Assembly: GCF_003391055.1 (NCBI RefSeq) | Contig: NZ_QUAJ01000010.1 | Location: 1-64,000 of the forward strand | Source of the DNA: Psychrilyobacter piezotolerans | GTDB taxonomy: Bacteria > Fusobacteriota > Fusobacteriia > Fusobacteriales > Fusobacteriaceae | DNA length: 64,000 bases | Reading direction: 5' to 3' | Part shown: piece after piece, positions 42,144 through 48,777 of the stretch | Numbering within the stretch: position 1 is the first letter of the stretch | How the letters are laid out: each line of letters opens with the position of its first letter | Notes under the pieces: generated by a model | What the model saw: the letters and a program-made list of their open reading frames with translations, nothing else | Told to the model about the DNA's origin: nothing | Databases searched by the model: none | Made by a program: the position numbers and the translations under genes

Positions 42144-42336
42144 ATCGGACGAAGGTATGGGGAGAGAGCTTAGAATATAAGCCACCGAAGAAGTAAAACT
42201 TTCAGGTATTCTGCAAAGCAGATAAGGACCCTTACTGGACGAGCCTCTGGAGAGACCCAAAATAACGGGCACCGAAGGAGCAAAACCGGTCTATGGACTG
42301 GACAAATCTCTCAGGTAAAAAGGACAGAGGAAGGAA
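42144..42336 (+). ncRNA. Tandem glycine riboswitch
   Basis: Two aptamers with a short linker. Aptamer 1 shows GGGGAGAGAGC, then CCACCGAAG, CTTTCAGGT and AAGGACC. Aptamer 2 shows CTGGAGAGACCC, GGCACCGAAGGAGCAAAACC, CTCTCAGGTAAAAAGGACAG. These are the conserved blocks of the glycine riboswitch in the right order, and the tandem layout is its usual form. It lies downstream of a consensus promoter and upstream of a terminator and the threonine aldolase gene. Confidence 0.95.
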
Positions 42337-42402
42337 AACATATGCATATATGCATGTGTTTTATTTGCCTTCTAAAAAATTCTTATGGATTATTTCCTAC
42401 TT

Positions 42403-42483: not shown

Positions 42484-43539
42484 ATGGAGAAAAAAAGTTT
42501 TGCAAGTGATAATTACAGCGGAGTACACCCAAAAATAATGGAGGCGCTTATAGAGTGCAATGTAGGTCACGCAAAAGCATACGGAGAGGATAGATACACA
42601 AAAAAAGCCATAGAGAAATTTAAACAGATATTTGGTCAGGAGATCTATGTTGATTTTTTATATAACGGTACCGGAGCCAACACGGTGGCTTTAGATGCCA
42701 TGACTGAATCATTTCAGTCTGTAATCTGTCCGGAGCAGGCACATATAAACACATACGAAGTAGGAGCCCCTACAAAATTTACCGGATGTCCCATGATAGG
42801 AATAAAGGCTTCTGATACAGGAGGTAAGCTGAAAGTTGAAAGGGTAAGGGACTACCTAAAAATTTCCACGGGGAGTATGCATCATTCCCAGCCGAGAGTC
42901 ATCTCTATAACCCAGCCCACAGAGGTAGGGAGTGTCTATACACTGAAAGAAATAGAAGAAATAGCAGACTTTGCCCATGAAAACGGGCTCCTCCTCCACA
43001 TGGACGGGGCAAGGATATTCAATGCGGCTGAGAGTCTGGGTGTGGGGTTAAAAGAGATGACAAAGGATCTCGGAGTGGATGTACTGTCATTCGGAGGGAC
43101 AAAAAACGGGATGATGTTTGGAGAAGCTGTGGTATTTTTCAATACAAAGCTGGCTGAAAATTTTACCCATAGAAAAAAACAATGCACACAGTTAAATTCT
43201 AAGATGCGTTATATAACGGCACAGTTTACAGCCCTTTTAGAAGATGGACTGGGATTTAAAAATGCAAAACAGTCCAATAATATGGCAAAACTTTTGGCAG
43301 AGAGTGTATCGGATATCCCAGGTGTGGAGATGACAAATGAAGTGGAAGCAAATACTGTATATGCCATCCTTCCAAAAGAAATAATACCGGATCTGCAGGA
43401 AAAATACTTCTTTTATGTCTGGGATATAGTACGTTCAGAGGTCAGATGGGTCACATCTTTTGATATAACAGAGGAAGATGTGATGGATTTTGCAGAACAA
43501 ATAAGGTCTACCCTGGAAAAAATTAAAAAAGCAGCCTAA
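42484..43539 (+). CDS. ltaE: Low-specificity L-threonine aldolase
   Basis: PLP enzyme that splits threonine to glycine and acetaldehyde. 351 residues. FASDNYSGVHPKIMEAL at the start, the HMDGARIFNAA motif and VLSFGGTKNGMMFGEAVVFF with the PLP lysine in TKNG are all present. CAGGAGG precedes the ATG. A tandem glycine riboswitch and terminator precede the gene, so it is made according to glycine level. The gene directly upstream (thrC) supplies its substrate. Confidence 0.95.
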   Translation: MEKKSFASDNYSGVHPKIMEALIECNVGHAKAYGEDRYTKKAIEKFKQIFGQEIYVDFLYNGTGANTVALDAMTESFQSVICPEQAHINTYEVGAPTKFTGCPMIGIKASDTGGKLKVERVRDYLKISTGSMHHSQPRVISITQPTEVGSVYTLKEIEEIADFAHENGLLLHMDGARIFNAAESLGVGLKEMTKDLGVDVLSFGGTKNGMMFGEAVVFFNTKLAENFTHRKKQCTQLNSKMRYITAQFTALLEDGLGFKNAKQSNNMAKLLAESVSDIPGVEMTNEVEANTVYAILPKEIIPDLQEKYFFYVWDIVRSEVRWVTSFDITEEDVMDFAEQIRSTLEKIKKAA

Positions 43540-45546: not shown

Positions 45547-46035
45547 TTACCATTCTTGCCAATTTATTTCATCTTTAATCTGCCCATTTTCATAATATGA
45601 AATCATTTTCCCATCCAATTGGTTTTGCTTGAAATCAAGTTTCATTTCAACCTGTCCATTTTTATAATAGGAAAAGTTCTCTCCATCCTGCTTCCCCTGC
45701 TTAAAATTAAATCTGGCTTCAACCTGCCCATTTTTATAATAAGAAATCATTTCTCCATCTAACTGATCATGCTCAAAATTAAATTTTTCTTTAATCTGCC
45801 CATCTTCATAATAAGAAATATTTTCCCCATGGTACTTACCCTGCTCAAAATTAAGTTTCTCTTTAATCTGCCCATTTTTATAATATTTAAGTAAAATTCC
45901 TGTATATGGTTTTTTTTCATTTGTTATATAAATAAGACCATTTCTTTTTTGTGTTTTAGAAAATAATTCTTCCCTTTTATCACAACTTATTAAAATTAAA
46001 CATAAAATAAATACAACTAATAATCTTTTTTTCAC
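45547..46035 (-). CDS. MORN-type (YwqK-like) repeat lipoprotein
   Basis: About 162 residues. The GTG at 46035 follows GGAAGTGG and gives a proper lipoprotein signal (KKRLLVVFILCLILISC, Cys18). The ATG frame further upstream would place that signal in the middle. The mature part has five to six repeats of about 23 residues, ISYYKNGQVEARFNFKQGKQ. The ending INWQEW is short. One of four MORN-type proteins in the window, and the only one with a lipobox. Function unknown. Confidence 0.75.
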   Translation of the reverse strand: MKKRLLVVFILCLILISCDKREELFSKTQKRNGLIYITNEKKPYTGILLKYYKNGQIKEKLNFEQGKYHGENISYYEDGQIKEKFNFEHDQLDGEMISYYKNGQVEARFNFKQGKQDGENFSYYKNGQVEMKLDFKQNQLDGKMISYYENGQIKDEINWQEW

Positions 46036-46217
46036 TCTGCCACTTCCTTTATAATCTTCTTCTATTAAGATAATATATCTTAATATTAGATAAGTCAAGA
46101 TTAAGTTAAAATTAATTTTTCTCATCTTAATATAAGGAAAATTTGAAATAGCAAAATAACTCGATACTGTTCTGATAGACACCTTTCTTTCTCACATGAA
46201 ATAGATCTTAAATTGAT

Positions 46218-46853
46218 CTATATACTCTTCAATATTTCAATAAACTCCTCAGGTTCAGCTCTCTCAGTATGGTTGGCATTGGCATAAACATATCGAATTA
46301 CTAAGTTTTCATCGGTAATTATTGTTGCAGGCATAGGCAGTTCTCTCCTTTTATCTCCATTTGAATCTTCCAAATTTATTCCAAACTCCAGATAAAGATT
46401 GTTTAATTCTTCAGAAAGAACAAAAACTAATCCTAATTTCTTAGCAAAATTATTTTCTATGTCACTTGTGATCAGGCTTTTGGCGTCTTTCACTTCTTTA
46501 GTTTTATGTTTATCAGGTTTTTCAGGAGATATTGATATTAATTTACCTCCTAATTCTTCGATTTCATCCTGCATCTCTTCTAGAACTCCCAGTTCTAAGT
46601 TGCAGTATGGTCACCAGGAGCCTCTAAAAAAATTTAAGACCAATTTCTTATTCTTAAAACTGTCCTTGCTGTATTTATTTCCCTGGGTGTCTATTAAATT
46701 AAAATCAGGGAGTTTTTCTCCTACCTTTATTGTTTTCTCCTCAATATGAGTTGCTTTTAGTTCTCTTAAAGCTTTTTCCATGGTGGCTATTACTTCATGA
46801 GGCATATCAGCTTCTGCATTGGTACTATATTCTTTTAATTTTTCTCTTAACAT
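46218..46853 (-). CDS. Peroxiredoxin-like (AhpC/TSA) protein with in-frame TGA at the active-site Cys: probable selenoprotein
   Basis: Read through the TGA at 46611-46613, the frame encodes 211 residues of the peroxiredoxin-like AhpC/TSA family. The N-terminal half ends LVLNFFRGSW. The TGA falls exactly where relatives have the peroxidatic Cys (RGxWCPYC), and the frame continues PYCNLELGVLEEMQDEIEEL. It later has LGLVFVLSEELNNLYLEFGI and LPMPATIITDENLVIRYVYA. This would be a UxxC active site with Sec at 81 and Cys at 84. A hairpin of the bacterial SECIS type follows (46569-46605). GGAGGG precedes the ATG. The alternative is a simple nonsense mutation. No sel gene is in the window. Confidence 0.75.
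46569..46605 (-). promoter_or_regulatory. Bacterial SECIS-like hairpin
   Basis: Six bases after the TGA, CTGCA (46605-46601) can pair with TGCAG (46573-46569). Inside, TAGAACT-GGG-AGTTCTA forms a perfect 7-bp stem with a GGG apical loop. The loop starts 21 bases after the TGA, inside the range known for bacterial SECIS elements, and begins with G as expected. Confidence 0.65.
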
Positions 46854-46977
46854 TTTTTCCCTCCTTCATTGTTATGATTTAAATGTTATTACTTTGATTA
46901 TATATACCCTTTACAGATTTATCCTCTATTTACTCAATTTTCTATTAAAATTGAGACTAAATTTATCTACATATTAT

Positions 46978-48423: not shown

Positions 48424-48777
48424 ATGAAGAAAATACTTTTACTACTACTATTAATATTAGCATTTAACATAAGCTCAATTAGTTATAGAAAATCAATTGA
48501 TCAAAGGCAATTATATAACCGAAATATCAAACCTCAAAGACATTTTAAAAATAAATTAACAAATGCGAAAGTTATTGGCTACTGTGAAAACGGAAAGGTT
48601 ATATTTAAAGGGAATTTTAAAAATGGTAAAAAAGATGGAGAATGGCTTACTTACTATGAAAATGGGAAAATCCAAGCTAAAGGAAATTATAAAGGTGGGG
48701 AAAAAGACGGAGAATGGCTTACCTATTATAAAAATGGAAAAGTTAAATTGAAAATAAATTATAAAGAGGGAAATTAA
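48424..48777 (+). CDS. Short exported MORN-type repeat protein
   Basis: 117 residues with a full signal peptide (MKKILLLLLLILAFNISSIS). SYRKSIDQRQLYNRN follows, then three repeats: VIGYCENGKVIFKGNFKNGK, WLTYYENGKIQAKGNYKGGE and WLTYYKNGKVKLKINYKEGN. It is the nearest relative of 15150-16055 at the N-terminus but much shorter and with the signal core intact. AGAGGTG precedes the ATG. Function unknown. Confidence 0.7.
   Translation: MKKILLLLLLILAFNISSISYRKSIDQRQLYNRNIKPQRHFKNKLTNAKVIGYCENGKVIFKGNFKNGKKDGEWLTYYENGKIQAKGNYKGGEKDGEWLTYYKNGKVKLKINYKEGN

Follow-up and report, generated by a model that had tools for sequence, protein, structure and literature searches.

An in-frame TGA probably read as selenocysteine in a peroxiredoxin-like gene of Psychrilyobacter piezotolerans

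The window, by which we mean the whole 64,000-nucleotide stretch of Psychrilyobacter piezotolerans DNA analyzed here, carries on its minus strand two open reading frames (46611-46853 and 46218-46574) that had been proposed in a preliminary description to be one frame interrupted by a single TGA. Translation of this TGA (46613-46611, codon 81) as selenocysteine (Sec) confirmed the proposal, yielding a 211-aa protein, MLREKLKEY...FFRGSW-U-PYCNLEL...LKSI, that ends at a TAG stop (Table 1). Pfam matches extended across the TGA (AhpC-TSA, 7.1e-23; Redoxin, 2.9e-20), with PF00578 scoring 81.3 bits against a gathering cut-off of 26, and the DNA pattern F[YF]RGxW-TGA-x[YF]C matched this gene and no other part of the window. 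ORFs containing YY-x-NGQ/NGK repeat units, MORN_2-like by look, flank the gene at 45547-46182 (-) and 48424-48777 (+). No conserved operon was seen, as the gene neighbours differed among the window and the three other Fusobacteriota genomes carrying TGA forms (G054, G050, and G049). Elsewhere in the window, a glycine riboswitch (RF00504, 59.2 bits) was detected at 42237-42337 (+), just 5' of an ORF (42484-43539) that reads as a low-specificity threonine aldolase; genes for GrdA and GrdB (glycine reductase) also occur in the genome.

Table 1. Coordinates of the features at the candidate selenoprotein locus (window positions).
Feature	Position	Strand	Basis
Predicted CDS, peroxiredoxin-like selenoprotein, Sec at codon 81	46218..46853	-	Single frame with TGA as Sec; Pfam; full-length relative, 67-68% identical, with the same TGA
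In-frame TGA, U81 of RGSWUPYC	46611..46613	-	TGA in 4 other Fusobacterial genes, TGT/TGC in 10; Sec machinery in the genome
Codon of C84, UxxC partner Cys, aligned with the peroxiredoxin peroxidatic Cys	46602..46604	-	Profile alignments (2ywn, 2cx3, ResA 4nmu); invariant column
Apical SECIS element (candidate) TAGAACTGGGAGTTCTA, stem and GGG loop	46581..46597	-	Agrees with the bSECIS model; near-copy in own selD; raised synonymous conservation, codons 84-96
Full SECIS-like hairpin with lower stem (CA..CUGCA / UGCAG..UG)	46565..46609	-	Post-TGA fold of -14.8 kcal/mol; synonymous-codon null, P = 0.008
Putative ribosome-binding sequence, GGAGG within AAGGAGGG, 5' of the ATG	46859..46865	-	Direct sequence reading

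Profile alignment to solved peroxiredoxins (2ywn, 2cx3) set FFRGSW-U81-PY-C84 on FYPxxF-T-xx-C, pairing U81 with the peroxiredoxin Thr and C84 with the peroxidatic Cys, so that the earlier placement of the TGA at the peroxidatic Cys was not supported. Alignment to ResA (4nmu) put U81 on W-C-xx-C, at what is the first Cys of the thioredoxin motif. The Sec thus occupies the thioredoxin-like N-terminal position, which it also has in published UxxC peroxiredoxin-like selenoproteins, in contrast to the TxxU of true Sec-peroxiredoxins. The canonical PxxxTxxC peroxidatic motif is altered, with R77 in place of the Pro, U81 in place of the Thr, and the Cys retained as C84. In the AF2 model (pLDDT 91.6), U81 lies just before the N-terminus of a helix spanning residues 82-92, and comparison of this model with the PDB returned peroxiredoxins first (Bcp4 3hjp, Z 19.9; AhpE, Z 19.0). 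The product would be a thiol/selenol oxidoreductase that combines a peroxiredoxin fold with a UxxC site of the thioredoxin type (RGSW-U81-PY-C84). Most likely, the U81 selenolate would attack an oxidised substrate (peroxide or disulfide), C84 would resolve the resulting selenenic acid or mixed bond into an internal Se-S bridge, and regeneration of the enzyme would fall to a thioredoxin-type reductant. The reverse order, with a genuine Sec form in which C84 is the peroxidatic nucleophile and U81 the resolving residue, would make the protein a peroxidase in the strict peroxiredoxin sense. We consider this doubtful: C84 occupies an invariant column over the peroxidatic Cys of 2ywn and 2cx3 and the fold is closest to peroxiredoxins, but the motif that activates the peroxidatic Cys has become RxxxUxxC, and the position of U81 relative to helix 82-92 is that of the attacking Cys in thioredoxins. 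Moreover, where an enzyme contains Sec, it is usually the attacking residue. Attack by U81 followed by resolution by C84 is the order that we favour.

Judged by its gene content, the host should be able to read UGA as Sec. The genome encodes a tRNA-Sec with a UCA anticodon (65.8 bits against a cut-off of 47, with ARAGORN in agreement), together with SelA (592.8 bits), SelB (370.2 bits), and SelD (385.2 bits), each above its curated cut-off; selD, selA, and selB are consecutive in a cluster on contig C5. All the components that the preliminary description had named for a search were therefore recovered. In-frame TGA codons were found in conserved contexts in selD itself (CSGGG-U), in two GrdA genes (inside the family match), and in three GrdB genes (T-S-T-TGA-G-T-C, by eye from the translation), which indicates that this genome uses Sec. 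Fused MsrA-MsrB-like genes were noticed just upstream of selD in the host genome (L033, 320-1333) and near the Sec peroxiredoxin-like gene of G050 (L178, 1704-2714).

The SECIS-like hairpin described earlier was recovered downstream of the TGA, with its GGG loop beginning 21 nt past the TGA (20 nt between) and 7-8 uninterrupted base pairs in its apical stem. Its minimum free energy was -14.8 kcal/mol for stretches of 61-64 nt and about -14 kcal/mol when assessed against the bSECIS limits. The 64-nt stretch gave z = -3.2 relative to dinucleotide shuffles, whereas z fell to about -1.3 once upstream sequence was included, and a 91-nt stretch favoured another pairing; owing to these lower z values and the competing pairing in longer stretches, fold energy alone is not decisive, and the comparative evidence is. 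Against 2000 synonymous-codon resamplings that kept the protein, the window hairpin was unusual (P = 0.008), the corresponding hairpin of the closest relative, in G054, was deeper (-19.6 kcal/mol; P = 0.002), and the Cys genes showed nothing unusual. In L019, L021, and L023, the remaining Fusobacterial Sec genes, the SECIS candidates were weaker and in a different register, with folds at best marginal against the same null. The bSECIS rules, as given in a recent review, call for a loop of 3-9 nt, an upper stem of 4-16 bp, a G in the first two loop positions, a distance of 16-37 nt from the UGA, and an MFE of at most -7.5 kcal/mol (PMC13188914). The window element, which the preliminary description had put forward for such a comparison, lies within all these limits (loop GGG, spacing 20, stem 8 in a constrained scan), as do 112 of the 118 distinct Sec sequences among the matches listed; L023, at -7.0 kcal/mol, falls just beyond the energy limit. 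None of the 10 Fusobacterial Cys genes passed, compared with 3 of 7 other Cys genes. As these three GC-rich, non-Fusobacterial genes pass, the rules alone are permissive.

The host's own selD carries nearly the same SECIS apex (TAGRACNGGGNGTTCTA): the apical element of the window, TAGAACTGGGAGTTCTA, nearly recurs 3' of the Sec codon in selD (TAGGACCGGGTGTTCTA), with 14 of 17 positions identical. Such a match was reached by 15 of 200,000 shuffles of the selD stretch and by no other of the 2177 TGA-following stretches of the window. The joint window/selD apex pattern occurs exactly at just two places in the 3.36 Mb genome, a count that serves as a uniqueness check and not as an independent test, because the pattern was derived from those two places. 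A third copy with one mismatch, on contig C6, was dismissed as chance: the 744-aa ORF around it has no interruption, and the 40 nt preceding the copy contain no TGA. Between the window gene and its relative in G054, synonymous identity was 10/12 over codons 84-96 versus 51/126 elsewhere (Fisher P = 0.005).

Members of the family were found in 14 of 98 Fusobacteriota genomes (E below 1e-15), and the orthologue was absent from most genomes of the same genus. The homologue alignment recommended in the preliminary description divided the genes clearly: five contained exactly one stop, a TGA at the same codon (the window gene, two genes in G054, and those of G049 and G050), and ten were free of stops, with TGT or TGC at that codon. 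SelA scored above its cut-off in all four genomes with TGA forms, the host included, as against 52 of 98 Fusobacteriota genomes overall, and tRNA-Sec did so in three of the four, the exception being the 85%-complete G050, where none was detected. The nearest relative (L010 of G054), from another genus, is 67-68% identical over 211 residues, shares the TGA, and is otherwise intact. The frame is maintained, with identity to this relative at 94/130 residues after the TGA versus 48/80 before. The changes between the two genes, judged by codon-position counts, fell mostly on third positions. This Sec relative adjoins a SelU/MnmH-like gene (tRNA 2-selenouridine synthase; L176, G054:C11, 8096-9163, -). 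In two other Fusobacterial genomes of a single genus, selA is seemingly broken by stops and frame changes (G019:C8:413482-414815 and G028:C1:615186-616513), which suggests that the Sec trait may have been lost there.

A recent nonsense mutation, from TGC or TGT to TGA, that turned a Cys peroxiredoxin-like gene into a pseudogene would need only a one-base change, and the ten Fusobacterial relatives with TGT or TGC at this codon agree with it. It is nevertheless very improbable, because conservation is higher downstream of the TGA than upstream and substitutions fall mainly on third positions, and because the frame is kept and the TGA shared in a diverged relative of another genus. The TGA also recurs in three further Fusobacterial genes and in more than 100 from other phyla, synonymous sites in the hairpin are conserved, and the genome holds the Sec machinery. 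Decoding of the TGA in some other way, by Trp or Cys reassignment or near-cognate readthrough, has a precedent in the TGA reassignment of some bacteria but is extremely improbable here, since the remaining TGA-split frames of the window resemble chance on inspection, the position is an active-site residue exchanged between Cys and Sec, and the genome combines tRNA-Sec (UCA), SelA, SelB, and SelD with a SECIS-like element common to selD 3' of the TGA.

In all likelihood, to judge by these sequence comparisons, the gene is an intact selenoprotein gene whose TGA is read as Sec. The central claim of the preliminary description, a Sec peroxiredoxin-like protein with a SECIS element, is strongly supported by the machinery, the TGA of relatives, the selD-like hairpin, and constraint before as well as after the TGA, and only its peroxidatic-Cys assignment has been given up. 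We are highly confident that the locus is best explained by a peroxiredoxin-fold UxxC selenol oxidoreductase with SelB/SECIS-directed Sec insertion, in which U81 would attack and C84 would resolve. SelB and Sec-tRNA(UCA) would bind the hairpin just past the UGA, such that Sec would be inserted in place of termination.

Proteins of this kind have been described before. UxxC peroxiredoxin-like selenoproteins were reported in a Sargasso Sea survey and also in Geobacter, Desulfotalea, and Syntrophus (PMC1088965, PMC1794560), and by frequency the family belongs to the top 20 bacterial selenoprotein families (PMC5029168). Four papers characterize the peroxiredoxin-like thiol:disulfide oxidoreductases as distant peroxiredoxin homologues within PF00578, with UXXC in place of TXXU and Sec/Cys exchange (PMC1088965, PMC1794560, PMC2398784, PMC13188914). 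The window gene is like them in its PF00578 domain, in having UxxC where peroxiredoxins have TxxC or TxxU, and in Sec/Cys exchange. It very likely adds a member to this known kind, from the bacterial family that includes Ilyobacter and Cetobacterium, and its assignment to that exact thiol:disulfide oxidoreductase subfamily, judged by domain, motif, and host range, is probable. The literature passages searched contained no report of the UxxC family in Fusobacteriota, and a full-text search for the motif strings WUPYC and WUPFC returned unrelated papers only. PrxU (NF040737) has a peroxiredoxin fold and a Sec near the peroxidatic site as well, but its Sec is at the peroxidatic position (TxxU), three residues later than that of the window protein, which scored 34.9 bits against the PrxU cut-off of 270. 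The SelL-related redox proteins (NF040769) are likewise peroxiredoxin/thioredoxin-fold selenoprotein relatives, and that match spans most of the domain at 31.7 bits against a cut-off of 120; across NCBIfam, the window protein fell far below every curated cut-off. Homologues on plasmids, including those of Cetobacterium and Ilyobacter, bear the NCBI name 'peroxiredoxin-like family protein' and carry Cys where the window gene has Sec, and a family match was also found in Ilyobacter polytropus NC_014633. The Sec form catalogued under cd02970 is given as UxxS and not UxxC (PMC13188914).

Scanning GTDB species genomes with the pattern F[YF]RGxW-TGA-x[YF]C revealed at least 118 stretches in many phyla. 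Among the matches listed were Poribacteria, Acidobacteriota, Deltaproteobacteria-type lineages, Myxococcota, Chloroflexota, Planctomycetota, Gemmatimonadota, Pseudomonadota (Reyranella), Bacillota, and more, and in nearly all of those listed the frame stayed open over a long distance to either side of the TGA. Geobacter (L041) and Desulfobulbaceae were matched too. One match on a viral contig (L154) was attributed to chance, as no more than 7 codons precede its TGA and 14 follow it, and a single-sequence protein search of viral contigs and genome contigs gave no match. In a quick tree of 74 rows, whose deep branches are weak and which says nothing on the direction of Sec/Cys change, the window gene and the first copy of G054 formed a clade adjoining the Fusobacterial Cys clade (SH-aLRT 90), whereas the second copy of G054 and the genes of G049 and G050 lay among Bacillota-type Sec genes (97). 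The tree requires at least six Sec/Cys changes, with the family alternating between Sec and Cys across close relatives. The grouping of this second Fusobacterial lineage with Bacillota Sec genes is the pattern that transfer would give. Another hairpin (CUUGG..CCAAG around GGUU/AGUU), at a different position, is common to the Fusobacterial genes L019, L021, and L023 and the Bacillota genes L096, L103, and L151, its closing pair being A-U in some genes and U-A in others; its presence in both phyla would be in line with transfer between their Sec genes. Because no NCBIfam model recognises the window protein and the motif occurs in about a dozen phyla or more and in two Fusobacterial lineages, we tentatively raise the possibility, itself rather unlikely, that the F[YF]RGxWUPYC group forms a subfamily of its own, rich in Sec and separate from the UxxC peroxiredoxin-like selenoproteins already catalogued. 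If so, many such genes may be recorded in databases as truncated or as pseudogenes.

A pipeline unaware of the family would annotate the present gene as two fragments or a pseudogene, when it is a selenoenzyme candidate. The SECIS apex common to selD and the peroxiredoxin-like gene readily suggests what SelB may recognise in the host organism, and the occurrence of Sec and Cys forms within one bacterial family offers a convenient natural experiment for asking why a UxxC redox site should use selenium.
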